Source: a virus. From it: a DNA stretch of 26,472 nucleotides. The stretch spans positions 1 to 26,472 of IMG/VR virus record IMGVR_UViG_3300032242_000212. One strand, written 5' to 3'. Positions 23 through 15,369 of this stretch are shown here, piece after piece. Made by a program: the position numbers and the translations under genes. Position 1 is the stretch's first letter, and each line of letters opens with the position of its first letter. Below the pieces are notes generated by a model. That model searched no databases and was not told the DNA's origin. It worked only from the letters and a program-made list of their open reading frames with translations.

Positions 23-285
23 CCAACGCTTTTGCGGAGATCATATTAACAATACAGCCCATGCTTGTGAAGTGTATGGAAACTCTAGGAGACGAGTGCA
101 CCGTAGTTGTTGTAAGGCAGTTGGCAATAGAGTTCTCTGCCCGATACCTGCTCGCAGTGAAGGTTACGGTCAAAGATGCCAACAAAGAAGAATTGGTTGA
201 AGATTTAATGAACGCAACATTTATTCGACTAGGGGAGTTGATGGAAGATGCTGTTGGCTTGGGCCTTCTAAGGCGCACACAATGA
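19..285 (+). CDS. Hypothetical phage protein, 88 aa
   Basis: I do not recognise this family. The product is mostly helical and acidic, with a central beta-like stretch (TVVVVRQLA near residue 30) and no signal peptide or clear membrane segment. The frame is open to the window edge, so a start further left is possible. I chose ATG 19 because it overlaps the preceding stop as ATGA. Its own TGA overlaps the ATG of the nuclease gene, again as ATGA, so it is translationally coupled to the recombination genes. A role alongside them is only inferred from position. Confidence 0.6.
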   Translation: MTNAFAEIILTIQPMLVKCMETLGDECTVVVVRQLAIEFSARYLLAVKVTVKDANKEELVEDLMNATFIRLGELMEDAVGLGLLRRTQ

Positions 286-1160
286 TCATCACCAACAAGT
301 ACAACCTCCCGCAGACGTTTGTTAACGTCCTAAAGCGCCCGTCTTACTCCAAGGGAAAGTCCAACATCTCGGCCACCGAGTTGATCTCTTCCCCGCGGAT
401 TGTCCAGCTGCGCAAGCTACACGCCGATCAGATTGAGCAGGACGTTAGCGAGATGGTCTGGTCCATCTTCGGCACGGCTATTCACGGCGTACTGGAGCAT
501 GGCAAGGATGACCACCACCTAGTCGAAGAACGCTTACATACCAGCGTTGACGGCTGGGCCATTTCCGGCGCCATAGACCTACAGATTGTCAATCAGGACG
601 GCACTATCACCGTTAATGATTACAAGACTGTGGGCGCATGGTCGGTGATGAACGAGAAGATCGACTGGGAGCTACAGCTAAACATCTACGCTTGGCTTGT
701 CCGCAAGGTAAAGAACATCGATGTGAGCAAGCTGGAGATTGTGGCCATCATCCGCGACTGGAGCCGTAGGGACGCCGCCATAAAGGCATCCTACCCTGAT
801 GCCCCTGTGAAGGTTATTCCCATTCACTTATGGCCATACGAGCGCCAGCAGGAGTTTATCCAGCAGCGCATTGAGATTCACTCCAACGCCCTGTTTGACC
901 TTGAGACAGGCGACGAGTTACCCCACTGCACCTCTGAGGAGATGTGGGAAAAGCAAACAACCTACGCGGTTAAAAAGATTGGTGGAGTCAAGGCACGCAA
1001 TGTCTGTGACACCAATGAGGAAGCTCTAGCCAAGGTGGTGGAGTACGGAAAAGAGTACGAGATAGAAGTGCGTCCAGGAGAACGGACGCGCTGCGCTAAC
1101 TTTTGCTCTGTTAGTAAATGGTGCAATCAGTACCAGGATTATTTAAAAACCAAGGAGTAA
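282..1160 (+). CDS. PD-(D/E)XK exonuclease, RecB/Cas4-like, four-cysteine type
   Basis: Predicted DNA exonuclease that would resect double-strand ends to make single strands for the Erf-type annealase two genes downstream. Visible nuclease elements are a GTAIH box ending at His68, SGAID with Asp99, NDYK with Asp113 and Lys115, and a QLNIY motif at Gln132. Four cysteines frame the C-terminal half: Cys216 (PHCTSEE), then Cys271-x3-Cys275-x5-Cys281. This resembles the iron-sulphur staple of Cas4 and AddB nucleases, where one cysteine pairs with a distant C-terminal trio. The 292-residue length fits a single-domain phage nuclease. The nuclease call is firm; the Fe-S cluster is inferred from spacing. 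It is too far from any CRISPR feature to be a Cas gene here. Confidence 0.85.
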   Translation: MIITNKYNLPQTFVNVLKRPSYSKGKSNISATELISSPRIVQLRKLHADQIEQDVSEMVWSIFGTAIHGVLEHGKDDHHLVEERLHTSVDGWAISGAIDLQIVNQDGTITVNDYKTVGAWSVMNEKIDWELQLNIYAWLVRKVKNIDVSKLEIVAIIRDWSRRDAAIKASYPDAPVKVIPIHLWPYERQQEFIQQRIEIHSNALFDLETGDELPHCTSEEMWEKQTTYAVKKIGGVKARNVCDTNEEALAKVVEYGKEYEIEVRPGERTRCANFCSVSKWCNQYQDYLKTKE

Positions 1161-1162
1161 GC

Positions 1163-1414
1163 ATGAAGGATTGGATGGAAAGGGATGGCATTCAAGAAGT
1201 TGAAACCAAAACGGAAGGCATTACTGCTGACCACGTTTGGTACAACGCAGATATTTTGACGCGCAAGATGTCAGGTTGGTCGTTTGAATTTCAGCGGCTG
1301 GTTAAAACAATGGAGGACCGGCACAATGAACATCTCAAGATAATTGCTGATCTTTTAGCAGAAAACCAGCAACTTAAAAATCAGTTAAAAAACAAGGAAA
1401 AGCATGGTACATAA
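1163..1414 (+). CDS. Small hypothetical protein with C-terminal coiled coil, 83 aa
   Basis: Unrecognised small protein. The C-terminal half (residues about 40-83) is a continuous charged helix ending in a Gln/Lys/Leu-rich stretch (LLAENQQLKNQLKNK) with leucine spacing typical of a coiled coil, so it probably dimerises. An in-frame ATG at 1118 lies inside the nuclease gene, but I chose ATG 1163 because AAGGAG sits 4 bases upstream and this start avoids a 43-bp overlap. It lies between the exonuclease and the Erf annealase, and overlaps the latter by 11 bp. An accessory role in recombination is only a guess from position. Confidence 0.7.
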   Translation: MKDWMERDGIQEVETKTEGITADHVWYNADILTRKMSGWSFEFQRLVKTMEDRHNEHLKIIADLLAENQQLKNQLKNKEKHGT

Positions 1415-2084
1415 AAAATTAATGCAAGCGCGGATACGTCTGCAAGGCACAAAGCTAAAGAAGACCGGATTGAACAAGTTTGCCGGTTACAGTTATTTTG
1501 AACTGGGCGACTTCTTGCCCGAGATCCAAAATATCTTTAACGACCTAGGTCTATGTGGGGTTGTTTCTTACGAGCAAACCTACGCAACCCTGTCCATCAC
1601 CGACATTGATGACGGCACAGTGATTGTGATCTCTAGCCCTATGGCTGGTGCCGAACTCAAAGGCGCACACCCCATCCAGAACCTAGGCGCGGTTGAAACC
1701 TACCAACGCCGCTACCTTTGGATGACGGCCATGGAGATAGTAGAGCATGACGCTATTGATTCCTCTTCCAGAGTAGACGAGCCAAAGCCAAAGGCAGAAC
1801 CAAAAGCGGAGCCGAAGAAAGTAGTCAAGGGCGACACGTTACCGCCTCAGTGGGTAGAGCCTAACGAACCTTGGACGATTGTGGTTAACGCCGAAGACCC
1901 TAAACAGTGGAACGAGCTACTGATAGCCGCAACCAAGTTAAAGCTGCAATACGCTGACAGCGAAGACAAGGTTAAGGAAATGTACAAGGTTAACCGCCAG
2001 CATTACGACCATGCGAAAGCAGAGTCACCAGAGGTCCATGCGGAAATCATGGATTTGTTTAAAGAAGCGAAAGGAAGGTTTTAA
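1404..2084 (+). CDS. erf: Erf-family single-strand DNA annealing recombinase
   Basis: Single-strand annealing protein of the ERF superfamily. These proteins pair complementary single strands for phage recombination and genome circularisation, independently of or together with host RecA. The two conserved ERF blocks are visible: KKTGLNKFAGYSYFELGDF at about 19-37 and the LGAVETYQRRYLWMTAMEI block at 94-112. A Lys/Pro/Glu linker (about 125-142) then joins a charged C-terminal tail, as in P22 Erf, where the N-terminal domain forms rings. It is preceded by an AAGGA-like ribosome site and encoded just downstream of the exonuclease, giving the usual nuclease-plus-annealase pair. Its TAA overlaps the next ATG as TAATG. 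Confidence 0.88.
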   Translation: MVHKKLMQARIRLQGTKLKKTGLNKFAGYSYFELGDFLPEIQNIFNDLGLCGVVSYEQTYATLSITDIDDGTVIVISSPMAGAELKGAHPIQNLGAVETYQRRYLWMTAMEIVEHDAIDSSSRVDEPKPKAEPKAEPKKVVKGDTLPPQWVEPNEPWTIVVNAEDPKQWNELLIAATKLKLQYADSEDKVKEMYKVNRQHYDHAKAESPEVHAEIMDLFKEAKGRF

Positions 2085-2344
2085 TGGAATACTCCAACAC
2101 AGGTGCGCTGTTCACCTCAATGAACAAGCGAAACGAGAAAGCGCCGGACATGAACGGCAACATGAAGTTTGATAAAGCCTACCTCATGGATATGATTGAT
2201 AAAGCAAAAGGCTCAGATGAAGTAATTATCAAGCTGGACGGCTGGGTCAAGCGCGACAAGAACAACAACCGCATGGTTTCAATGAAGGTAAATACCTACG
2301 TTAAGCCTGCTTCAACTCAAGAAAAGGACCCATGGGATGACTAA
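2084..2344 (+). CDS. Small hypothetical protein following erf, 86 aa
   Basis: Unrecognised. The translated sequence has a helical N-terminal third, then a strand-turn-strand pattern (VIIKLDGWVKRDKNNNRMV) and a Pro/Asp C-terminal tail ending in DPWDD. An acidic tail of this kind occurs in single-strand-binding proteins as a partner-docking peptide, but an OB fold is not evident in so short a protein, so this is a weak analogy. It is coupled to erf by TAATG and overlaps the next gene by 8 bp, which supports a recombination-linked role. Confidence 0.65.
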   Translation: MEYSNTGALFTSMNKRNEKAPDMNGNMKFDKAYLMDMIDKAKGSDEVIIKLDGWVKRDKNNNRMVSMKVNTYVKPASTQEKDPWDD

Positions 2345-2952: not shown

Positions 2953-3221
2953 AGAAACTAATCCCCTACAGCGTATATCTACCTGTGGAATATCACGACA
3001 AGATCAAAGTCTTGGCAGCACAGCGCAAAGCATCAGCGATGGTGCGGGATGCCATTTGCATGATCCTTGATGGCAATGATGCCTACAAAGCTGGCTACAA
3101 CAAAGCCCTGAAAGACTGCACCCGACAGATTGATGAGGTCAAAGAGATTGAGCATATCGCCGTCAGAGGCAAGTACCTTAACAGTCTGTTGACTTTAAAA
3201 ATTGAAGCCTTGGAGATGTGA
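2949..3221 (+). CDS. Ribbon-helix-helix-like DNA-binding protein, 90 aa
   Basis: Probable small DNA-binding regulator. Residues about 5-38 follow the ribbon-helix-helix pattern: a short strand (PYSVYLPVEYH), a helix (DKIKVLAAQRK), a Ser-Ala turn, then a second helix (AMVRDAICMIL). This resembles CopG/Arc-type repressors and accessory factors. The rest (about 45-90) is helical and may mediate oligomerisation. ATG 2949 is preceded by GGAGG at 2939-2943 and overlaps the previous stop as ATGA. A longer in-frame reading from TTG 2937 would start on the ribosome site itself and was rejected. It could regulate this operon; no operator could be identified. Confidence 0.65.
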   Translation: MKKLIPYSVYLPVEYHDKIKVLAAQRKASAMVRDAICMILDGNDAYKAGYNKALKDCTRQIDEVKEIEHIAVRGKYLNSLLTLKIEALEM

Positions 3222-3433
3222 TGGATGAATTCGACAACATGCAAAACGCCATCTATGAGGCCATAGCAAATACAGAATGCAAGGAACCAATGAACGCCGT
3301 TATGGCTCTTTGCTCTGTGATGTGCGATCTTATGGTCCAGCTTAAGATGGATAACGAAAACCAGGCTGTTAACGCTGTTATACACACCCTGCGTATAGCA
3401 AGAGAAAACCGCCAGAATACGGAGATCCACTAA
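3221..3433 (+). CDS. Small helical hypothetical protein, 70 aa
   Basis: Unrecognised all-helical protein, rich in Met, Asn and Ala, with two cysteines in the middle (ALCSVMCDLM). That stretch is hydrophobic but too short and polar to call a membrane span. I chose ATG 3221, which overlaps the previous TGA as TGATG and has GGAG five bases upstream. A GTG at 3218 lies only two bases from that site. The TAA overlaps the next ATG as TAATG. Confidence 0.6.
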   Translation: MDEFDNMQNAIYEAIANTECKEPMNAVMALCSVMCDLMVQLKMDNENQAVNAVIHTLRIARENRQNTEIH

Positions 3434-3645
3434 TGACTGAGCATGAAGAAAACCTGCGCGACTTGGCGGCTATGTTTGCCATGACCGGCTTAATCATTAG
3501 GAATAGGGAAGGAGAACAAATAGTTCCTACCGCCTTTGAGTTGGCCGACTACTTCATGGAGTCGCGTAAACCAGAGGAGGGTATTGCGGCCATCAAGAAG
3601 ACCCGCAAGAAACATGTACAGGAATCGCAAGCCGGGGAAATTTAA
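3433..3645 (+). CDS. Small hypothetical protein, 70 aa
   Basis: Unrecognised. A helical N-terminal part (ENLRDLAAMFAMTGLII) is followed by a charged middle and a basic C-terminal tail (KKTRKKHVQESQ), which could contact nucleic acid. It is coupled to the gene before it by TAATG and abuts the PAPS-reductase-like gene with no spacer. Nothing in the sequence fixes a function. Confidence 0.6.
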   Translation: MTEHEENLRDLAAMFAMTGLIIRNREGEQIVPTAFELADYFMESRKPEEGIAAIKKTRKKHVQESQAGEI

Positions 3646-4443
3646 ATGGACCCCTTTTTAATCACAGAGCCAACTTGCATATCGTTTAGCGGAGGGAGGA
3701 CTTCTGCTTATATGCTTTGGAAAGTATTGCAAAGCAATGGCAAGCTGCCAGATGAAACATTCATTCTATTTGCTAATACCGGCAAAGAAGATGAAGTAAC
3801 GTTAAATTTTGTACAAGAATGCTCGGAACGTTGGAATGTGCCAATCACTTGGTTAGAATTTGATCCAGACGCAAAATTTAAAGTTGTGGACTACAAAACT
3901 GCTAGTCGTAATGGAGAGCCTTTTGAAGCATTAATAAAAAAACGTAACTACTTGCCAAACACGTTTGCTAGGTTTTGCACATCAGAGCTAAAAATTCTGC
4001 CAATGAAAAAGTATTTAGAGTCACTAGGTTACGAAGACATTGTTACTTTTGTTGGAATAAGAGCAGACGAGCCAAGACGAGTGGCAAAGATGAAGACTAA
4101 TGCAGACATTAAAGAAACGCCATTGGCGACTGCAAATGTTGGTGTAGATGAAGTGCTTGCGTTTTGGAGTAATCAACCATTTAATTTGCAAACGATAACG
4201 CTTGATGGCAACTCATTGCTAAGCAACTGTGATTTGTGCTTTCTAAAAAAAAGCAATCATTTGTTGTCTTTGATAAAAGACAAGCCAGAAAGGGCAGTTT
4301 GGTGGATAAACATGGAAGACAAAATTGGCGCAAGATTTAACCAAGCACATCCTTCTTACAAATCTTTATTGCAATTTTCAGAAGATCAAATTGATATGTT
4401 TGATACGGATGAAGAATCCATTGCCTGCTTTTGTGGCGATTAA
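3646..4443 (+). CDS. PAPS reductase-fold (PP-loop ATP pyrophosphatase) protein
   Basis: Belongs to the adenine-nucleotide alpha-hydrolase/PAPS reductase-like family common in phages. The PP-loop SGGRTS is at 15-20, FANTGKE at 42-48 and GIRADEPRR at 137-145. Cysteines lie at Cys111 (RFCTSEL), Cys195-x2-Cys198 (CDLCFLKK) and Cys261-x-Cys263 at the extreme C-terminus, which could bind iron-sulphur or zinc. The fold is shared with DndC of DNA phosphorothioation and with sulphate-assimilation enzymes, but no DndD/E or siderophore-type partner lies nearby, so the substrate is unknown. Its base composition is clearly more AT-rich than the nuclease gene upstream (hand-counted 60-base rows at 3901 and 3961 give 37% and 35% GC, against 62% at 361), suggesting recent acquisition. 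No strong ribosome site is seen before ATG 3646. Confidence 0.82.
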   Translation: MDPFLITEPTCISFSGGRTSAYMLWKVLQSNGKLPDETFILFANTGKEDEVTLNFVQECSERWNVPITWLEFDPDAKFKVVDYKTASRNGEPFEALIKKRNYLPNTFARFCTSELKILPMKKYLESLGYEDIVTFVGIRADEPRRVAKMKTNADIKETPLATANVGVDEVLAFWSNQPFNLQTITLDGNSLLSNCDLCFLKKSNHLLSLIKDKPERAVWWINMEDKIGARFNQAHPSYKSLLQFSEDQIDMFDTDEESIACFCGD

Positions 4444-4445
4444 AA

Positions 4446-4733
4446 GTGTACAGGAATCGTAAGTTGCTGGACGCTGCGCGTGAGTTGCCCTGCCAACACT
4501 GTGGTACGCAAGATGGTACGGTAGTGGCGGCTCACAGCAATCAATTGAGGGATGGCAAAGGCCGCGGCCTTAAAGCGCACGACTACAGGATTGCCTCACT
4601 CTGTTACAAGTGCCACGCCGACCTGGATCAGGGCACGCATATGAGCAAGGCCGAAAGAATTGAGATGTGGGAGGAAGCACACCGCAAGACTATCGGCCTT
4701 TTCTTTGAACGCGAGATTATTGGGCTGCTCTGA
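4446..4733 (+). CDS. DUF1364-like HNH nuclease
   Basis: Small metal-dependent nuclease-like protein resembling the phage DUF1364/NinX-type family. With the GTG start, Cys16-x2-Cys19 (PCQHC) and Cys53-x2-Cys56-His57 (CYKCH) form a zinc-ribbon pair around an AAHSNQ motif at His30 and a GKGRGLKAHDY block. DLDQG follows the second cysteine pair, as in HNH folds. Such genes sit in phage recombination/late-control regions and may act as junction or packaging nucleases; the exact substrate is not known. The start is uncertain: TTG 4431 overlaps the previous gene, GTG 4446 follows its stop, and TTG 4464 has AGGA upstream. Its 3' end overlaps the giant convergent gene by 17 bp. Confidence 0.75.
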   Translation: MYRNRKLLDAARELPCQHCGTQDGTVVAAHSNQLRDGKGRGLKAHDYRIASLCYKCHADLDQGTHMSKAERIEMWEEAHRKTIGLFFEREIIGLL

Positions 4734-7700
4734 CCTTATCGTTAAATGCTTGCATAGCCTTAACCTTCCTGGCATCAATAGCATCAATTATTGCTTTTGG
4801 TTTGTTTTGTGCAATTGCATCCCTTTTCTCTTTGTTAATGGTGCCAACAGCTTTTTGGGCAGCATTAGCTTCACTCCAAAGTCTGGCCTCTGGGTTGTCT
4901 TTTAAGTATTCGGCTACAGGCTCACGATTTTTCTCGCGTTGCTTAATTTCATGCTCGAATACATTCATTCTTTCTATGTTGTCATAGAACCTGGATGAGG
5001 TGGCGGCTGGAGTCTTAGTCTCGCCAAAGAACTTGCCAGCAACTGGAACGCGATACATGGGTTGTTCTTCACCCCTTACCGCTGCGCCAACAGACTCACC
5101 GGCCTTAACCATCTCTCTGAACACGCCGCCAAAATATTGCTCGGCCAAGTAATCCAATTGGTCTGCGGTTGGGCTAATTTTTCCTTTGGTATGTAATGTT
5201 CCAAAAGGGGAAGAGGACCAGTTAAGGAAGTAAGCAATACCTTTACTGATAGCGCTGGCGTTATCTCTTGACCGCTCATATCCCGGAGTTTCTTCGCCCG
5301 GACGATCTGTCCTTGCAATTGGACGGCCAAAAGCATCTTTATTCATCAAGATATTTGCCATTGGGTCCAATGGAGTGGGCATTAGCTGCTGCCAAGTAGC
5401 TCCAATACCCAATGGATTTACAGAATCAAACATCATTGGAAGAATGTTAAAAATCTTATCAGAGGCAGATTCGTTGCTCTTCATTGCCTTTGACTTGATT
5501 AAAAACGCCTCTGTCAACATACGGCCAATTCCTGGCAACATGCTAAATCCTGGGGGATAAGGAGGATACATAACAAAGTACTTACCACCACCAGTTGGGA
5601 TAACAAACGCTTTTTCTTTTACAAACTCTGGCGGATCATCATCATCAAAACCAGCCGCAAGAAGTAATAAGGCTTGCACGATGCCAAGCCCAATACCGCC
5701 AGCAATAATGTTTCTTCCTTTTGGCCCAGATAAAACTTTTGCAACAGTTACTGCGCCTTGTATACCAGGGTTAATAAAAGAGAACCAGGCTTGTAATTTT
5801 GGAACCAGTGCGCCCTTCTTATCAAAGTTAATAGTGACATTTTTGGCTAAGCTTGCAGCCTTGTCATCGCTCATATTGTTGTCAAGGACCGCGACTTTAA
5901 ACGTAGCCAGACGCACGGCATTTTCCATTGCCTCGTTGTAATCGGACAAGTAATCAAATAACCAGTGGGCACCAGCCATAATCTTGCCACGATCCATTTC
6001 TGCAAGTTTTTTATCAATTAGGCTAATTTCATCAGTAGCCGCCCTGATGCTTAGTAGGCCTTTTATGCCCCAACCTTTTTCCAGCTTTTCAAGCCTGGTC
6101 TTTTGTTGAATAAAGTTTGCAGAAACACCAGTCTTTCCTCCAGCTAGTCTATAACGCTGGTAAAGATCGCGCCATTCTTGTGGTGTTAATTCATCTTTAT
6201 CAAGAACATTTTTTGATCCACTCCAGCCGCGCTGCTCTTTAAAGATTGCAGCCAATGCGGGCATGACGGACTTCATTACCTTGCCCTTCTGGTCGGCAAG
6301 CTCTGTAGTGGATAGTTGGAGCAAAGCAGTGCCAACGTCACGGCCAAAGTTAAAGGCTCCGAAGATTGGGTTGTACTGGGTGTTAATGGCCGAGATCCAG
6401 CGCGTAATCATGCCGGCAGTACCAAGGAAGATGCCTAGCTTTTCAACATCCAGGTTTCTCAAGGACTTAACCATACGCATTGCGCGCTCATCGCTGGGGT
6501 TAAAGATGATGAACCAGTCCTGGCCATTTATGCGAACAGGGAAAACGTTATCCATGCTACGCATAGCTGGGTTGACAGCGTATTTAACAAGCCCAGTCTC
6601 TTTATCAATAGATGGAGACTTTGGCTCTTGCAGCATATTTTCTGCTTCGTCCGCAGAGATACCAAGAGACTGCACCTCTTGCCTGAACTTCTTAATGCTT
6701 TTTATTGCATTGGGATTAACGGGCACCCAAAAGTTTGGATTTGGATTTGTTAGCACCAGGCCCATGAGCGACTTGCCAACGCGGATACGCTCAGCCCTGT
6801 CAATGGCGCGCTTATGCTGCAATATGATGTTCTGCAAAATATTGGCAACATTTTTGGTTGATCCAAATGCGCGTTTGGAGAATGATCCCCTGGAGCCAAG
6901 GCCACCGCCATTGCCAACGCCATGATTAACGAAGTCTAGATCTTCACGCTGCAACGGAACGTAATGCTCGTATGTGTTGTTCCAATCATTAATAGTCTTT
7001 TGTGTTTCAGCGCCAGAGTCCACCAAAATCTTTTGAGTGTCATCAACAATCTTGTCAAACATGTTGGCAATTTTGTTGTAAATCTTCAGTTTGTTTTCCG
7101 GGACTTCTGCTAGATATTTAAGCGCCTTTGCTGTTTCAATGCCAGATCCACCATCAGGCAATGATGGGTTAATTTTTGCTATTTGCTCATTGCGCTCTTC
7201 CGCATGGCGGTTATGCATGTACTCCTCTACCTCAATAATGCTCACTTTGTTCTTGTACATTTCCTGAACAATTGGCATGATTAAGTTATCAATGAAGTTT
7301 TCTTCACGCGCAGCTTTGCGGCTAATGAAGCTTTCATTCTTGAGGTAGGGATTAATCTGCTCATTCAACAATTCTCCACGCACTTTTTGAATTGCATCAA
7401 TGACACTCTTCATGTCGTGCTGCTTGTCAAGGAAGTTGTACGCAAAGGTATCCAGTGGAGATGAGACTGGTGCCTCAAATGCTGGCTCTGGAGCTTCATT
7501 GCCTCTAAAGTTTCTGCGCTCAATAGAATAGTAATCACCAGCACCTAACATATAGTTGGTGACAAACTTTCCATCAGACTTTGCAAGGCTATCCAGCGCA
7601 CGGATGATGGAGGCGTCAGACTTCAAGCCAAACAACGACTTGATCTTTTGGCCCAACTCTTTGAGCCAGTTCTTCAGGCGAGCAAGGACGCCGCCTCTAA

Positions 7701-10700
7701 CGGCATCAAAACGGGCTTTAACAATGTCGGAGCCATTGACAGCCCAGAACTCAGATGGGTTAAAGTACTCGTAAAGATTCCTTGGAACCATGCCAAGCTT
7801 AAGCATTTCCATTGCAAATTCTTCACTAGACCCACCTTTCTGAAGTGCTTCTAATAAAGATTTTATTTGCTCGTAAGCTTTTTCTGCGCCCTTGGGGACT
7901 TCTATGTTGGCTATATTGCCATCGCCATAGTGGGCATCCATAAGGGCGGCAAAGTAAAGCTTTTCACTTGGAGTCTTAGCTGCCTTGGCGGCTTTGGCAA
8001 GCTGAGATGACCAAGCCTTGCGGATAGCCTGCTGTATCTTGGTTGGCATCATGCGCTCAAGATGATGCAAGATCTCATGTACTGTTGTTAAGTCAGATCC
8101 GCCATTTTTAATAATCGTCATGATCCGCTTATAGGCGTCGTATTGACCACCTTGACCTGGCTTGCCTTTGCCAATAATAGATACGCCTAAGTCGCTAACA
8201 AGATCTTCGTTGTTCACCATAAACCAAGTGGCTAAGTCACGAGCTTCGCGTGAAATTTCTTTGGCATCGACGGCTTGATTTAATCTTGTTTGAATGTGCA
8301 GAAACCCACGCTTGCGTTCATTGGGCTCTTCGTTAAGACGTTGCTCTTCATCAGCAGCAATGGCCGCATCAGCCCGCTCAACAAACTGTTCGTCGGTTAT
8401 GCGGCCATCTTTGCGCATCCGGTTAAGAGTCTTGATGGTGCGCTTTAGTGATTCAGAGCGTTTCTTCTGTTCTTCCTCTGCGTAGCCTTCTCTCCCTATG
8501 TTATAAAGATAATCAGCTTTATCTCCATAAGTAACATTTTTAGCCAAAACCATGTTGCCAATTTGTATAACTTGTTCCGCAGCTATGACTGGTTGAGTTG
8601 TATTTCGGTCATAGAAATAAGCATGGCGAGTTGGGTCTACAGCAATCTGAGTCCAAGCCGGATCATTCATTGCCTCCACAGCATTCACATAAGCCGTAGA
8701 TGGATCGGTTTTAACGTACTCCCCCTCCATTGTTTGAAGGGCATCTTTTGAGGCTCCTGTAGCAATATCTAAAGCTTTAGTTTGGCTACCTAATCCAAAG
8801 GTTACATTGTTGATTACAGCAACACTGTCATAGCCAATCACTTTGCCGGGGCCACTTTTGTTGCCCTTCTCATGGATTGAAACAACGTATACACCCTTGC
8901 GGTTAAAAGCTGGTATATCCAGACGCAGGCCAACGCGAGTGCCGTCTGAAATGGCTGGGTTAATTTTTTCTTTTTTATCCGAACTTAAAGCCTCAACCAT
9001 TTGCTCTTTAGTAGCTGGCTTTAATGGGACTTGGTATAAATAAATTGGCCTGTATTTATTTACTAATTTATCAAACTCAGCCGCCGACATTCTTCCAGCT
9101 TTAACTTCTTTTGCCGCAGCCGCCAACTCAGGAGAACGCCCCGGAGGTAATTTTTTACCCTCAACACTGTAGAAAGTTTGTTCCTTTGGTTCTTTTGGTT
9201 CTTTGCCTGGAGCCTCTTCCTCGGTCTTGACCTCAAGCTTGGCTACCTCTGTTTCACGGCCAGTTTGCTTGCGCTCAACGCCAGGCTTGGGGGCGGGGAC
9301 TTGCTTCTCTGTTACGGTTGTCTTGGTGACTGGCTCAACCTTCTGGCGGATGATGTCATCACTGTACATAGCTTTACCATTGATAAAGTCCATGACATTT
9401 GCGCCGTTCTCAGGAACGATAAATATCTTGGCACCATCCATCTGGTTAAGGTGGTTGGTGATTAGGTACTTGAAGGTTTCCTTGTTGACATTAATGCAGC
9501 CAAAGGAATAGCGGGAGTCTTCTGCTCCGGGCTTCTCTAGCGCAGCCAGGCGTTGCTTGGCGTCCGTCTCATGCGTCCATACAGAGTGCATGATAGTATT
9601 GGAGTATGGGCCGTTGCTTCCCATATGGGATTTGTCCAGCACAAACACCTTACCAAAGTCATAGTCTCCAGCGGTATAAGCCTCTCCAGCGCTTCGTTTA
9701 GCATCACGCAGGCCGAGATCAAACACGCCGGCCGGAGTAATTCTATTGGCTACGATCTCATTGTCGCCATGCATGTAATCGCCGATGGCCTTACCAAACA
9801 ATGTTTTGCTTTGTAGCAATAGCGATCCATCAGGATTGAACAAGTAAGTGTTACCGCTGCGCTTATCTGCAACAATGAACAGCTTGTCATTAGCCTTAAG
9901 CTGCTTTTCCAGGGCTGGGTAGATCACGCCATACGCACGTTTGGCGGCGTCAGACATGGACTGCGCTTCTTTTGGAAGGTCTTTGATAACCTCGCTGGTC
10001 TTGATGTCGTACTGGGGAACTGCAATCGTGTACGGCTTGCTGACAAACTGAGGGTTAAAGACAATAGCCACAGACAGCACGCCGTTGGCCAGCTGCTTGA
10101 TGATCGCACGGATCTTGCCGTTAACAGCCTTGGCGCCTTCTGTAATGAAAGCAATGACATCTTTGCGGATGCTGTCAAGGAACTTAGTAGAGCCACGCTT
10201 AGCCCCGTACTGAGACTCAAGAGACTTGGTCTGGTCTTCACTGAGCTTGGATACTTGGTTGGTTAATAGAGCGTGCTGCTTCTCTTCACCTATTTCCGTG
10301 AACTCGCCTTCAATCGTGTATGGCTCATTAGTCAGCCGAGGCGCAGCTGGCTTTTCTTCTGGCCCAAGCACCTCCACCTCCGGATCACGAACCATAACTT
10401 TGTTGGAATCTTCTGCAAAGTCAAAGCCAAACTTTTTGTAGAGATCCTCAAGCTGCTGGCGGTCCAAGCCAAAGTTCTTTTCCTTGATGTTTACAAGAGG
10501 AGTTGGCTCAATATAAAGGGTAACGCCATACTGATCGGCGGCATCCACAATGTTCTGGAGCGCTTCATTGGCCTTGCCTTGGTTTCTCTTTGCTTGGTCC
10601 ACCAGCAGGGCGTTGATTACCAGATCGGTAGACTCACCTTGACCAGTTAGGACGGCATTCTTATCCTGGAAAAGCACAAGCTGCGGCGTAAGAGATACGC

Positions 10701-13700
10701 GCACGCCATCTTTCTCAAACGTGCGATGGGGCTCACCACCCTTGTCAACATAAGTGCGAGGGTCGTCAAGAGCCAACACCTCATAGCCGTCATTGAACAG
10801 CACGGATGCCAAGGGATAGCGTAGATTGCGCCCCTCTGGAGTTTCTACTGGCTCAGGTTTGGCTGGCTTTGCAGGAGCTTCTTCCTTAGCAGTCTCTTCT
10901 TCTTTCCCGCCAATAATGTTGCGGGCAATCGTGGCTGCTTCCTCTAAGTCACCATCGTAGTACTTATCCTGGAACGCAGAGCTATCAATAGCTTTTTCAT
11001 CAGCCTCTGTAGCACTGTCAAAAGCCTTTGGATCTACGCCGTAATAGGTGCGAGTGAGGCGCTCAGCTGGAGTCATACTCTCGGCGTTGTTAGCCATAAA
11101 GAATGCGTAAGCAAACCCCTCGGGCGTCAATGAGCGGGAGTATTTATCTTTGCCGCTTAGTTTGACTATCTTTGAGCCTTCTGTTGGCTCAACAGGGGCC
11201 ATAGGTAATTCATTCTCAAAGTTACCCCATAGCAGGGTTTTTTTTGTGTATGGATCACCGTAAAGGTTAGGGTCAAACGTCAAATGCGCTGGCGGCAGGT
11301 TATTTAACTTGGCAATGCGACCAACAGGATTTTCCAATGCCCAAATTTTTGGCTGAAGAAAATTAACTGTACGGATCACTTGCATTACCAACTCGTTACT
11401 AATCTCTGTCTGGCCCTTGGCGTCTTTTTTGGCCCAGAATTGAGCGCCAGAAGAGGCGAAGTCTGTGCAAGGAGGGGCAGCAAGAATGCCCCATACATCC
11501 AAATCTCCATACCCATTTTCAAGTAAGTACTCTGCACTAAAGTCGTTAATGTCTTCGCCCGTTTGAATATCAAAGGTATGAACATCGTAGCCGGCTTCAT
11601 GCCAAGGTTTAGCCCACTCACCAGAAGCATCAAACAAACTAAGAATGGTCTTGTTGTAATTTTTATTAGCCTTGCCCTGGCGTGCCGCCTCCGCCTTCCA
11701 CTCATCTATCTGAGCCTTGGCCTCTTCGGGCGTCATCATTTCAGTCGCCTTGGGTTTAGCCGGCTTTTCCGTCGAGTGCATCAATGCATTTTTGCGGATA
11801 TCAGATGGGTCTTCCTCATCTAATTTTTCTTTAAGAATATCTCCAACAACTTTTGAGTCTGCCTCAAATGGAACAACCTTAACACCGTCTTCATTGACCG
11901 GCGCTTCTTCGTCTTTTTCTTCTTGAGCAAAGATATCCTTTTGGCCTTGTACAGCTGCAATATCCGCAGCGCGGTCACTACCTGTTAAAGTAAATTCACC
12001 AACCTCTTTGTCAGCTTTGGCCCTATCTCCAGCTTCTTTATTAGCCTTGGCCTCGGCGGCCTCTTTTGCCTCCGCCTCAATACGATACTTTTCTTTAGCC
12101 CTTAATCCTTCTGGGGTTGGTTTAGTAAGCGCTTCTCCTTCATCTGGTTCAGTAGATGGAATCTCGCTTTCGGGCTCAACGCTGCGAGCATTGATTTCAC
12201 CCTGTCTTTGTTCGTCTGCTGCTTCTTGAAGCTCAAGATTTTGCTCCTCGGTGGTTAGGTAGTCGTTGATTAATTTCTCGGCCTGTTCAATAGATCCAAA
12301 GATTTGTTCAATTTCTACCTGTGAATCGTAAGGAATATAGTTCTGGCCACGGACCTGGTCCTTGATGTACTCTTCCGCCTCTTGGCCATCAAAGCCGGGA
12401 ACGCTTGAGCGCATTTGGAACGGCAAGAATTCGTCCAAATCCCCATTGGAAACCATGTCTGCAATTGATGTAGGGCTCTTTTTGGCTTGAAGCTTTTTCT
12501 GGTAAACCTGTGGGCTTTTACCAAACAACTCAGCCATATCGCTAGGGCCAAGCTTTCCTGTTAAAGCTGTCCATAAGCTCATTCCAGGTTTACCCTTGAT
12601 TTTGCTTACAGCCTTCTCACCCTCTGCAACCCTTTGCTCTGCCTCGGTAACTTCCTGTGGCCGTGGAACAGCCTTGCGGATTACTTGTTGGGCGTTATTG
12701 GCAGAAGTATTTGCACGCTTGATAGCGGCATTAAACTTGTTTTGATCAGCGTTATTAAATTTTTCTTGTAAGGCATAGTGCCCAGATAAAAGATTTGACC
12801 TATCAGCCGTTAAAACGTTGTATTGATCTTTTAATTTACTTGCTTCTGAATTTGATTTTATTTTTGGATCAGTAACTTCATAACCAAGATTGTTAATAGC
12901 CTCTACAACACTTCCAAGTGTTTTTTCTACATTATCAAAAGCAGCCTTTGCCTCAGGTGAGGCTGTTTTCTGAAAGGCGTCGTAATAATCTTGCTCTGTT
13001 GTTAATTTTTTAGGCGCAACTGGAGCAGCAGGCTTTTCTTCTTTTGCAATTGGTAAAGATGGTTTAACTGCATTAGTTCCCTCTCCCACAGTGGCAAATG
13101 ATTTTCCTTGAGCAACAGCAATGCGAGCCTGTTCTGCATTTGTAATAGGCGTTATGTTTGTTAAGCCGCCTTTGATTGGATCTCCAGCATAATGTTTTAT
13201 AACAGTTCCATCTATGCCAGTTAAATGCAGCGTGTTTGTTTTTGGATTAAAAAATCCATTTTCTGGATCTATATAGTCAGCTGCATTAGAAATACCATCA
13301 AACATGCCTTTTAAATCTTTATCCAAGATTTGCAAAACAGGAGTAACAGGTGGCTTTACATTGGCTGCGGGCGCTTGTTGTTCTTGCGCTTCTGCTTGCT
13401 TGGCTTTAGGGGTTTCAATGCCACTTAAGGCTCCTTCAATAGAGACTGGGGTTGGGGTAGTGGGAGCTTGTGCCTCCATTTGCTTGCGAACAAATTGACC
13501 AGCCTCTGAAACTGTTGGCTGGATTTCAGCAGGCGTTTCTTTTACTCCGCGTTCAGTTAAATAGTCATGTATGCGGGCAATATCAGTATTGCTAATTCCG
13601 CCTTTAGTGAGTACTTCTAATTGGTCGATAATTTGCTGGCGTGTTTTACCTGATGCCAAGCCATTTTCTACAATTTTGACAACCATATCCCTCAAAAGAA

Positions 13701-15369
13701 TTTTGTCATCAAAAGGAATTTCTTCGTTTGCGGCGTTTTCTCTAGCAGGACCTTGAGGCAAACCAATGCGATCAGCAAGCCCTTTGGCTGCTTTGGGCTC
13801 TTCAACATTAACTGATGGTAATGTTGCAACACCAGCAGGAGGTTGTCCCAATGCCTCACGCAGCATTGCTTCTGTGTCCATAGACTCAGAAGGTGCAGCA
13901 GTCAGGCCAGCAATACCAGCCGGAGGTGGCGCAGGCGGTTCTTCTGGAGGAGGCGCCATTGCAACGCCTTGCCGTGGCTTAGCAACTTTTTCTGCAACAA
14001 CTGGTTGATTTTGATAGTTGTTGGGGTTAAGGCGAGCAACAGCCTCTTTGTTAATTGCGTTTTGACTAAATTCAACAGCATTAAGGTCTGCCATGATGGC
14101 TTTACCCAAAGCAGTTCCAGGAGCAATACGCGGCTCCACTCTGTCTTTATAAAACTGGGAAGCTATATGGGTGGCTTTTGTACCGCCCTCCATTACACCG
14201 CCCATTAATAACGTTTGCAAGAACTGCTGCTTAAACGCATCTACGAGATCCATTTCATCTGTAGTCAGTCCAGCCTTTAATTCTGCTGCATTTTGACCAA
14301 GATTGGTAACCGTCTCGGTTGTATGCTCTGCCGCTAAAGCAGTGGCTTTTTCGGCAATATTATTTTTAACCATAAATTGCTCAAGTCGGCTACTTCCGGC
14401 GGCTGCTCTAGCGGGGCCAGTAAATGCCTTGAGCATAATTGCATTGCTTAATGCTTCGGGAACAGCTTCCCAAGCGCCATAAGAAGATGCAGCATCATCA
14501 AATTCTTTTTTGGCATTTTCCCAATCAGCTTTTCCAATTGGTTTGTTATACAGCTTAATAGACTCTTGGTTTAATTTATCTCTAAGCCTGTTTAAAAAGT
14601 CATCTTTACTTGCTCTGTATGCAATAGTTCCGGAAGTCCCCATTCCGCCGGCAATAGCGCCAGGAATTCCAGCTACAGCAGCGCCAGCAGCATCTCCAAC
14701 AATAGAGCCAACCATAGAGGCCAGGCTAAATCCCATTGACTTAGAAAGTCCTTGGAATGCGTCGTAATTTTTATCCTGCTCTCCTGATGGAGTTTCAGGA
14801 TTCATCGCATTAATAGTTTTATCTACCCAAGTTTCCTCGCCTGGTGCGCCAATATCTCCAGCACGCAAAGCCTGAAGACCAGCCGCTACAAACTGGCCTG
14901 GGATTTTTGGAATTTCGCTGGCAACAATTTTTCCAGCTTGAGTTGCTGCCAGAATAGGCGTACGACCTTCTGGGTTAAACATTGGCCTAGCGCCACCAGC
15001 ACCTTTGTAGATTTCTTCTTCAGATACGCCACGCTCTTCCGCAGCTTTTCTTGCAGCATATTCATTGGCTGCTTTTGCTTTATCTCCAGGAAGTAGGCCC
15101 ATTAACATTTCTGAGAATGTTGGGGTGTATTCTGTAATCTCAGGACCACCGCTAGGTTTACGCAAACTAGCTATGCCGCCTTTTGGGGCTGTAGCGGCCG
15201 CGTAAAGCTGCTCTTGCGGAGACAACGCTGGGTTACCTGCAAAGTCAGGAACCTTTGGCGCAGGTGCCGGAGGTTGGTTCTCAAGGTAACCTAGGATCTT
15301 AGCTTTAGCCTCCGCCGGGTCTTCAGTAGTAATGTCGTACTGCTGACCTTTGTACTCATAAATGGGCAT
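4717..15369 (-). CDS. Giant polyvalent virion protein: methyltransferase, GNAT, L,D-transpeptidase and zincin domains
   Basis: A 3550-residue multidomain protein, the last gene of the late operon. Visible order: a small N-terminal domain (about 1-32, MPIYEYKGQQYDI); a Gly/Ala hydrophobic stretch (212-250); Pro/Ala/Glu linkers to about 1230; a cytosine-C5-methyltransferase-like domain (about 1240-1440; Phe1246-Asp1247, Pro-Pro-Cys1301, Glu1346-Asn-Pro); a GNAT-like domain (about 1515-1665; RNQGKA from 1595); an L,D-transpeptidase (about 1810-1995; His1928, Ser1955-x-Gly-Cys1958); a zincin HEILH (2431-2435); then long helical regions and a hydrophobic segment near 3240 before a basic coiled tail. 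The C-terminal part recalls large polyvalent-protein domains such as LPD38 (less certain). Such proteins are thought to be packaged and ejected to shield the phage genome and pass the cell wall. ATG 15369 has AAGG upstream. Confidence 0.88.
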   Translation of the reverse strand: MPIYEYKGQQYDITTEDPAEAKAKILGYLENQPPAPAPKVPDFAGNPALSPQEQLYAAATAPKGGIASLRKPSGGPEITEYTPTFSEMLMGLLPGDKAKAANEYAARKAAEERGVSEEEIYKGAGGARPMFNPEGRTPILAATQAGKIVASEIPKIPGQFVAAGLQALRAGDIGAPGEETWVDKTINAMNPETPSGEQDKNYDAFQGLSKSMGFSLASMVGSIVGDAAGAAVAGIPGAIAGGMGTSGTIAYRASKDDFLNRLRDKLNQESIKLYNKPIGKADWENAKKEFDDAASSYGAWEAVPEALSNAIMLKAFTGPARAAAGSSRLEQFMVKNNIAEKATALAAEHTTETVTNLGQNAAELKAGLTTDEMDLVDAFKQQFLQTLLMGGVMEGGTKATHIASQFYKDRVEPRIAPGTALGKAIMADLNAVEFSQNAINKEAVARLNPNNYQNQPVVAEKVAKPRQGVAMAPPPEEPPAPPPAGIAGLTAAPSESMDTEAMLREALGQPPAGVATLPSVNVEEPKAAKGLADRIGLPQGPARENAANEEIPFDDKILLRDMVVKIVENGLASGKTRQQIIDQLEVLTKGGISNTDIARIHDYLTERGVKETPAEIQPTVSEAGQFVRKQMEAQAPTTPTPVSIEGALSGIETPKAKQAEAQEQQAPAANVKPPVTPVLQILDKDLKGMFDGISNAADYIDPENGFFNPKTNTLHLTGIDGTVIKHYAGDPIKGGLTNITPITNAEQARIAVAQGKSFATVGEGTNAVKPSLPIAKEEKPAAPVAPKKLTTEQDYYDAFQKTASPEAKAAFDNVEKTLGSVVEAINNLGYEVTDPKIKSNSEASKLKDQYNVLTADRSNLLSGHYALQEKFNNADQNKFNAAIKRANTSANNAQQVIRKAVPRPQEVTEAEQRVAEGEKAVSKIKGKPGMSLWTALTGKLGPSDMAELFGKSPQVYQKKLQAKKSPTSIADMVSNGDLDEFLPFQMRSSVPGFDGQEAEEYIKDQVRGQNYIPYDSQVEIEQIFGSIEQAEKLINDYLTTEEQNLELQEAADEQRQGEINARSVEPESEIPSTEPDEGEALTKPTPEGLRAKEKYRIEAEAKEAAEAKANKEAGDRAKADKEVGEFTLTGSDRAADIAAVQGQKDIFAQEEKDEEAPVNEDGVKVVPFEADSKVVGDILKEKLDEEDPSDIRKNALMHSTEKPAKPKATEMMTPEEAKAQIDEWKAEAARQGKANKNYNKTILSLFDASGEWAKPWHEAGYDVHTFDIQTGEDINDFSAEYLLENGYGDLDVWGILAAPPCTDFASSGAQFWAKKDAKGQTEISNELVMQVIRTVNFLQPKIWALENPVGRIAKLNNLPPAHLTFDPNLYGDPYTKKTLLWGNFENELPMAPVEPTEGSKIVKLSGKDKYSRSLTPEGFAYAFFMANNAESMTPAERLTRTYYGVDPKAFDSATEADEKAIDSSAFQDKYYDGDLEEAATIARNIIGGKEEETAKEEAPAKPAKPEPVETPEGRNLRYPLASVLFNDGYEVLALDDPRTYVDKGGEPHRTFEKDGVRVSLTPQLVLFQDKNAVLTGQGESTDLVINALLVDQAKRNQGKANEALQNIVDAADQYGVTLYIEPTPLVNIKEKNFGLDRQQLEDLYKKFGFDFAEDSNKVMVRDPEVEVLGPEEKPAAPRLTNEPYTIEGEFTEIGEEKQHALLTNQVSKLSEDQTKSLESQYGAKRGSTKFLDSIRKDVIAFITEGAKAVNGKIRAIIKQLANGVLSVAIVFNPQFVSKPYTIAVPQYDIKTSEVIKDLPKEAQSMSDAAKRAYGVIYPALEKQLKANDKLFIVADKRSGNTYLFNPDGSLLLQSKTLFGKAIGDYMHGDNEIVANRITPAGVFDLGLRDAKRSAGEAYTAGDYDFGKVFVLDKSHMGSNGPYSNTIMHSVWTHETDAKQRLAALEKPGAEDSRYSFGCINVNKETFKYLITNHLNQMDGAKIFIVPENGANVMDFINGKAMYSDDIIRQKVEPVTKTTVTEKQVPAPKPGVERKQTGRETEVAKLEVKTEEEAPGKEPKEPKEQTFYSVEGKKLPPGRSPELAAAAKEVKAGRMSAAEFDKLVNKYRPIYLYQVPLKPATKEQMVEALSSDKKEKINPAISDGTRVGLRLDIPAFNRKGVYVVSIHEKGNKSGPGKVIGYDSVAVINNVTFGLGSQTKALDIATGASKDALQTMEGEYVKTDPSTAYVNAVEAMNDPAWTQIAVDPTRHAYFYDRNTTQPVIAAEQVIQIGNMVLAKNVTYGDKADYLYNIGREGYAEEEQKKRSESLKRTIKTLNRMRKDGRITDEQFVERADAAIAADEEQRLNEEPNERKRGFLHIQTRLNQAVDAKEISREARDLATWFMVNNEDLVSDLGVSIIGKGKPGQGGQYDAYKRIMTIIKNGGSDLTTVHEILHHLERMMPTKIQQAIRKAWSSQLAKAAKAAKTPSEKLYFAALMDAHYGDGNIANIEVPKGAEKAYEQIKSLLEALQKGGSSEEFAMEMLKLGMVPRNLYEYFNPSEFWAVNGSDIVKARFDAVRGGVLARLKNWLKELGQKIKSLFGLKSDASIIRALDSLAKSDGKFVTNYMLGAGDYYSIERRNFRGNEAPEPAFEAPVSSPLDTFAYNFLDKQHDMKSVIDAIQKVRGELLNEQINPYLKNESFISRKAAREENFIDNLIMPIVQEMYKNKVSIIEVEEYMHNRHAEERNEQIAKINPSLPDGGSGIETAKALKYLAEVPENKLKIYNKIANMFDKIVDDTQKILVDSGAETQKTINDWNNTYEHYVPLQREDLDFVNHGVGNGGGLGSRGSFSKRAFGSTKNVANILQNIILQHKRAIDRAERIRVGKSLMGLVLTNPNPNFWVPVNPNAIKSIKKFRQEVQSLGISADEAENMLQEPKSPSIDKETGLVKYAVNPAMRSMDNVFPVRINGQDWFIIFNPSDERAMRMVKSLRNLDVEKLGIFLGTAGMITRWISAINTQYNPIFGAFNFGRDVGTALLQLSTTELADQKGKVMKSVMPALAAIFKEQRGWSGSKNVLDKDELTPQEWRDLYQRYRLAGGKTGVSANFIQQKTRLEKLEKGWGIKGLLSIRAATDEISLIDKKLAEMDRGKIMAGAHWLFDYLSDYNEAMENAVRLATFKVAVLDNNMSDDKAASLAKNVTINFDKKGALVPKLQAWFSFINPGIQGAVTVAKVLSGPKGRNIIAGGIGLGIVQALLLLAAGFDDDDPPEFVKEKAFVIPTGGGKYFVMYPPYPPGFSMLPGIGRMLTEAFLIKSKAMKSNESASDKIFNILPMMFDSVNPLGIGATWQQLMPTPLDPMANILMNKDAFGRPIARTDRPGEETPGYERSRDNASAISKGIAYFLNWSSSPFGTLHTKGKISPTADQLDYLAEQYFGGVFREMVKAGESVGAAVRGEEQPMYRVPVAGKFFGETKTPAATSSRFYDNIERMNVFEHEIKQREKNREPVAEYLKDNPEARLWSEANAAQKAVGTINKEKRDAIAQNKPKAIIDAIDARKVKAMQAFNDKVRAAQ

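Follow-up and report, generated by a model that had tools for sequence, protein, structure and literature searches.

A phage lambda NinC-family gene carried as an optional insert before an HNH gene, with SspD as its closest described family

Introduction

The described system that lies closest to the gene analysed here is SspABCD, which carries out single-strand DNA phosphorothioation and in which SspD is the enzyme that inserts sulfur; in the available text of PMC7188994 and PMC8092258, SspD binds SspA and IscS can act as a sulfur donor. A three-cysteine 4Fe-4S centre plus a cysteine dyad is described for DndC in the accessible part of PMC10853773. Phage lambda carries a gene, ninC, that was found to be dispensable for plaques (PMC10695390, available passages), and the accessible part of PMC3224144 gives no yeast two-hybrid partner for NinC. 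No assigned function for lambda ninC was found in the literature, and no paper joining NinC to SspD or phosphorothioation was found in the open-licence literature. Virome studies have placed phage genes of the cysH type under sulfate assimilation in their counts, and viral cysH is termed 'not validated' in the available portion of a 2025 review (PMC12713726).

The gene and its family

The window (the whole stretch of DNA analysed, a virus record of 26,472 bases) was examined by ORF calling, and the gene under study, with an ATG start and a TAA stop, encodes 265 aa:

3646..4443, + strand: ninC-family gene for an SspD-like PP-loop protein (PF01507; PHROG 424; PADLOC SspD; aligns with lambda NinC)

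The product contains a PAPS_reduct/PP-loop domain (PF01507, E = 3.1e-08, 34.3 bits, Pfam cut-off 22.5) and was assigned to PHROG 424 (E = 5.1e-50). Its alignment with lambda NinC (Orf290) spans the full length with the same motifs, and on this sequence evidence the lambda NinC family gains a new member. The first-pass annotation had described it as a PP-loop gene with Cys111, Cys195/198 and Cys261/263, all of which were confirmed together with the ORF and the domain; it had also called the gene an orphan, which is wrong as to family, this being a lambda NinC relative with hundreds of phage relatives. In tblastn searches of 50,697 phage records, relatives were found in 410 with the window protein and in 501 with lambda NinC, and 258 of 267 pattern-matching stretches from viral contigs encoded a NinC relative. 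The name NinC has been given to relatives by several annotators, and many records say PAPS reductase instead. Among 5,426 complete E. coli genomes, 382 had a match to lambda ninC DNA, which in 147 covered 80% or more of the gene. Among close relatives the gene is under strong purifying selection (dN/dS 0.02–0.13 for pairs with unsaturated dS; all pairs with the window gene are saturated). Two paralogues lie close together in one phage (L016, 349–1185 and 1942–2757; L018, 4399–5235 and 5992–6807), with about 53% and 67% identity to the window protein.

Conserved residues

Conservation was followed in 78 members (70 distinct aligned sequences and eight cultured-phage proteins), of which 13 rows belong to phages in culture, with identity falling to about 30% in the most distant; close relatives make up most of the set because the best 80 of 258 relatives were kept. 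The following motifs were located in the window:

3682..3705, + strand: PP-loop SFSGGRTS, residues 13–20; Thr19, found in 77/78, stands at the position of the Asp of SspD SGGxDS
3976..3978, + strand: Cys111 in FCTSELK, proposed cluster ligand 1; aligned with SspD RWCT
4057..4071, + strand: IRADE, residues 138–142, with D141 and E142 each in 78/78
4228..4239, + strand: C195-x-x-C198, proposed cluster ligands 2 and 3; aligned with SspD GCxFCFFQ
4426..4434, + strand: C261-F-C263, C-terminal cysteine pair, proposed persulfide-carrying arm

Loss of the cysteines in related sequences had been set beforehand as the outcome that would count against a thiolation role; C195 and C198 were present in 78/78 members and C111 in 77/78, and the idea survived this check. 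K201 was likewise found in all 78, as were C195, C198, D141 and E142, and the PP-loop residues, R139 and R145 are also invariant, residue 19 being Thr in 77 members and Ser in one. The extreme C-terminal cysteine pair, scored by pattern, was present in 76/78, with varying spacing (CxC in the window protein, CxxxC in lambda NinC); the exceptions are L039, whose frame ends early, and Flavobacterium phage FL-1. FL-1 is also the member with Ser in place of Cys111, and this joint change, with the second C-terminal cysteine absent, fits a linked function of these residues. C11 (60/70) and C59 (66/70) of the distinct sequences are less conserved than the other cysteines. Taken at the level of sequence, the cysteines of the NinC family are not due to chance.

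An optional insert in a recombination block

The gene lies in a recombination block similar to those of lambda-like phages, and the following features were recorded there:

282..2344, + strand: upstream recombination genes for a PD-(D/E)XK exonuclease, an ERF annealing protein and an SSB-like protein (Pfam, PHROG)
3433..3645, + strand: small ORF; where ninC is absent, its final codons overlap with the start of HNH, which it adjoins in 28 related places
3610..3631, + strand: direct repeat, left copy, 22 nt, 86% identical to the right copy
4442..4463, + strand: direct repeat, right copy, and start of the HNH gene (MYRNRK), from the repeat search and empty-site comparison
4446..4733, + strand: HNH endonuclease gene (YbcO/DUF968-like; PHROG 131, E = 2.6e-25 on the longer frame 4431–4733)

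In five related contigs without ninC (L284, L285, L288, L289 and L290) the small ORF runs straight into the HNH start. When the window was compared with L284 by BLAST, the match ended at 3630 and restarted at 4442, with both ends falling on one L284 place, where they overlap, and both repeat copies map to a single place in the empty sites (in L284, near 3178–3198). The GTG start of the HNH gene at 4446 lies inside the right repeat and matches the ATG start of the empty sites. Among 47 related places with both flanking genes, a list in which at least three contigs occur twice, ninC was absent from 44 and present in three (the window, L286 and L287). Thus ninC is here an optional, discrete AT-rich insert before the HNH gene. 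The GC content, noted in the first-pass annotation as lower than in the upstream genes, is indeed 0.380 (GC3 0.342) against 0.401–0.520 (GC3 0.414–0.679) in nine upstream genes, two small ones being close (0.401 and 0.403), and 0.535 in the next gene; low GC3 also occurs in some late genes on the opposite strand. The low value fits a recent gain of ninC. L286 and L287 share the insertion site and junction of the window, and their ninC has diverged more than the flanking genes; the excess divergence between the window and L286 may reflect a later replacement after insertion. Direct repeats were not found as a general rule beside ninC: at 144 other loci, with the window, L286 and L287 set apart, the shared stretches were at most 11 nt, near the shuffled control. 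Such empty and filled sites in the phage group of the window offer a clean natural comparison with and without ninC.

On the opposite strand, the window encodes a polyvalent protein of 3550 aa (4717–15369, − strand), with an LPD38 domain towards the C-terminus (PF18857, E = 3.6e-24) and a part resembling DNA methyltransferases at residues 1233–1438 (PHROG 757, E = 3.2e-39; PF00145 just at the cut-off).

Nearest described family and predicted fold

Reference sets were assembled for SspD (eight loci, 307–456 bits), DndC (six), CysH (six) and CysD (five), together with E. coli YbdN; four of the six DndC proteins are above the curated cut-off, with L257 and L258 below it and L259 dropped. With PADLOC, the window protein matched SspD (62.3 bits, E = 1.4e-17) and only weakly DndC (19 bits); of 56 NinC members, all 56 matched SspD, 16 and 14 matched the two DndC models and six matched BrxP. 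The same ranking was obtained by profile–profile comparison (SspD, E = 1e-25 over 210 columns; DndC, 9e-12; CysH, 3e-6; CysD, 1.4e-3), in which C111, C195 and C198 align with SspD cysteines. The NinC profile scored all eight SspD at 65–73 bits, above every other reference protein (DndC 6.6–43, YbdN 28, CysH 1.5–17 and CysD at most 7 bits). In the tree, from which the truncated SspD L242 was excluded, 22 NinC rows formed a single clade (100/98), beside which SspD and one unassigned row were placed (94/84). The AU test gave p = 0.17 for NinC with SspD, 0.048 with DndC, 0.066 with CysH, 0.14 with CysH and CysD and 0.17 with YbdN, values that do not firmly exclude the rivals. On the profile evidence, the closest described family to NinC is SspD, with DndC and CysH clearly further. 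The suggestion that the protein is a thiolation-type enzyme stands as the best family inference from these comparisons, but the proper comparison is SspD, not DndC as first proposed.

Other assignments were considered and set aside. DndC as the nearest relative was ruled out by the profile scores, and the NCBIfam DndC model TIGR03183 found nothing in the window record at a threshold of E = 0.001. An IbrA-like role was approached through E. coli YbdN only: DUF3440 was present in 0 of 274 genomes of the class examined, YbdN scored 28 bits with the NinC profile, and the literature on IbrA/IbrB gave no lead.

The AlphaFold2 model, built from 56 sequences, gave a pLDDT of 86.3 and a pTM of 0.82; residues beyond 180 are less certain, the last block having a value of 46, and the tail bearing the C-terminal cysteine pair is poorly predicted. 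The solved folds nearest to the predicted one are APS/PAPS reductases (2goy: VIA Z 13.6, rmsd 3.5, 174 aligned) and the sulfur transferases LarE, TtuA and NcsA, some with [4Fe-4S] clusters; searches of PDB by single sequence or profile gave unrelated best matches. Likeness of a predicted fold to reductases and sulfur transferases does not show function.

The common annotation would make NinC a true PAPS/APS reductase, an auxiliary metabolic gene of sulfate assimilation. It draws on the PF01507 domain, on the label in many records and on the reductases at the top of the fold matches, and the C-terminal cysteine arm could stand in for the catalytic cysteine of CysH. Against this, the catalytic motif ECGxH (ECG[IL]H) was present in 0/78 NinC and 6/6 CysH, the CysH profile is far weaker than that of SspD, and the context is one of recombination. 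Sulfate assimilation was ruled out as the main reading by the missing motif and the weak profile, and a reductase activity is judged very improbable.

Partner genes and the PP-loop

Two features set NinC apart from SspD. The motif SGGxDS was present in 8/8 SspD and 0/78 NinC, with SGGxTS in 77/78 NinC; as Thr replaces the Asp, the ATP pyrophosphatase activity of SspD cannot be assumed. The second is the operon with SspB and SspC, genes that were identified by position and size beside SspD in 4/4 regions, not by profile. A scan of 3665 genes from 197 ninC loci gave no match to either (the gene count includes 57 of the 80 bacterial loci, a crude gene caller having missed the remainder). In the window, partners for phosphorothioation or sulfate assimilation had been reported as lacking, and accordingly no second sulfur gene and no SspB or SspC homologue was present among the scanned proteins of a record that may be incomplete. 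Lacking these two features, NinC may still work like SspD. Across the 50,697 phage records, SspB was found in three and SspC in three. The only records with SspB- and SspC-like genes, MT835926, MT835506 and MT835493, all come from human faecal samples.

The same observations bear on whether NinC has lost SspD-type catalysis and serves instead as a sensor (redox or Fe-S) or, in counter-defence, as a decoy binding host IscS or proteins of Ssp or Dnd. Thr19 in nearly the whole family, the missing SspB and SspC, the optional character of the insert (44 of 47 places empty) and the dispensability in lambda are in keeping with such a protein. The invariant PP-loop residues, R139, D141, E142, R145 and the three cysteines, however, exceed the needs of a decoy, and the E. 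coli-type PAPS reductase L260 also has no PP-loop Asp, yet is an enzyme. A non-catalytic role is therefore considered unlikely, if still to be weighed.

Genes beside ninC across phages

Neighbours were counted in 87 usable loci of 88 dereplicated from 140 viral loci, with random same-strand genes within six positions as the control. RusA, RuvC-like, VRR-NUC or Hjr genes directly adjoin ninC in 32/87 loci, compared with a control mean of 6.6% and a maximum of 14.9% over 1000 draws, an effect size that is biased upwards because the nuclease classes were picked after the neighbours had been seen and the profiles were built from neighbours. With HNH added, the count is 34/87. HNH alone (9/87) was not enriched, 61 of 1000 draws being as high, and the HNH neighbour in the window is thus not evidence by itself. 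Primase genes were also enriched beside ninC (19/87), and those frequent neighbours to which a name could be given are genes of DNA replication and recombination. In Vibrio phage P23 (L278), FL-1 (L279) and NVP1246 (L283), ninC is found next to genes for terminase, portal or DNA circulation/tail, not in a recombination block.

This neighbourhood also bears on the substrate. Transfer of sulfur by an Fe-S enzyme to RNA (host or phage tRNA) or to a free nucleotide, not to DNA, is suggested by the tRNA thiolases TtuA and NcsA among the nearest solved folds; tRNA thiolases of this type use three-cysteine clusters. Since the sequence profiles favour SspD, a DNA enzyme, and the frequent nameable neighbours are DNA replication and recombination genes, an RNA or nucleotide substrate appears rather unlikely.

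Proposed function

The reading preferred here, to which a probability of about 0.4 is given, is that NinC is an SspD-like Fe-S sulfur-transfer enzyme, fed by host IscS, with phage DNA as its substrate while that DNA recombines or replicates. C111, C195 and C198 would hold a [4Fe-4S] cluster in the PP-loop protein, and the host cysteine desulfurase IscS would hand persulfide sulfur to the flexible C-terminal cysteine pair. The three-cysteine cluster might then hold or activate the sulfur while the PP-loop binds substrate or nucleotide, and NinC would deliver the sulfur to nucleic acid, the likeliest target being phage DNA at nicks or junctions of recombination or replication. Phage junction nucleases could fill the role that the SspB nickase has in the Ssp system. 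Weighing against this reading are the Thr in the PP-loop, the missing SspB and SspC, the dispensability of lambda ninC for plaques, its want of a two-hybrid partner, the cultured phages with ninC away from recombination genes, and the lambda passaging result given below.

A broader version is doubtful: NinC in lambda and hundreds of phages would be a stand-alone DNA sulfur-insertion enzyme, working without Ssp/Dnd complexes and placing a phosphorothioate or other thio-modification at nicks and junctions exposed by RusA, RuvC-like, VRR-NUC, HNH or Rap, and its sparse sulfur marks would change the fate of DNA in recombination, in packaging or against nucleases. In the passages available from PMC8053081, lambda passaged on ssp-less E. 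coli loses SspE-protective phosphorothioation. Lambda carries ninC; if the lambda of that study was nin+ (those passages do not give the genotype), NinC alone makes too few CpsCA marks, and the result speaks against SspD-like phosphorothioation by NinC alone.

If NinC does transfer sulfur in the manner of SspD, many virome counts of the cysH type may carry the wrong label, and a new class of nucleic-acid modification in phages would become open to direct testing in lambda. Should NinC instead be an SspD with altered catalysis, counter-defence against phosphorothioation systems would be a possible role. The likeness to SspD gives the long-known ninC a testable role.

Comparison with known systems

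Lambda NinC, which carries the label 'phosphoadenosine phosphosulfate reductase', shares with the window protein the PP-loop, FCT..LK, NC..C..K, GIRADE..R and the C-terminal cysteine pair; the genes differ in setting, ninC of lambda lying between ninB and ninD in the nin region and the window gene being a cassette before an HNH gene. The 'SspD' matches reported by PADLOC in Sinorhizobium meliloti prophages, whose affiliation the authors left undecided in the available text of PMC12429752, have E values of about 1e-11 to 1e-15, the same range as NinC. DndC and BrxP resemble NinC in the PP-loop and the WCT..LK region, but DndC is longer, has no C-terminal cysteine pair (0/6) and scores far lower than SspD. 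SspD itself is of similar length to NinC and gives the best profile match, with three aligned cysteines and a C-terminal cysteine pair (7/8, all seven CxxC, the eighth being truncated); it differs in having SGGxDS where NinC has SGGxTS, and in the SspB and SspC genes that do not adjoin ninC.
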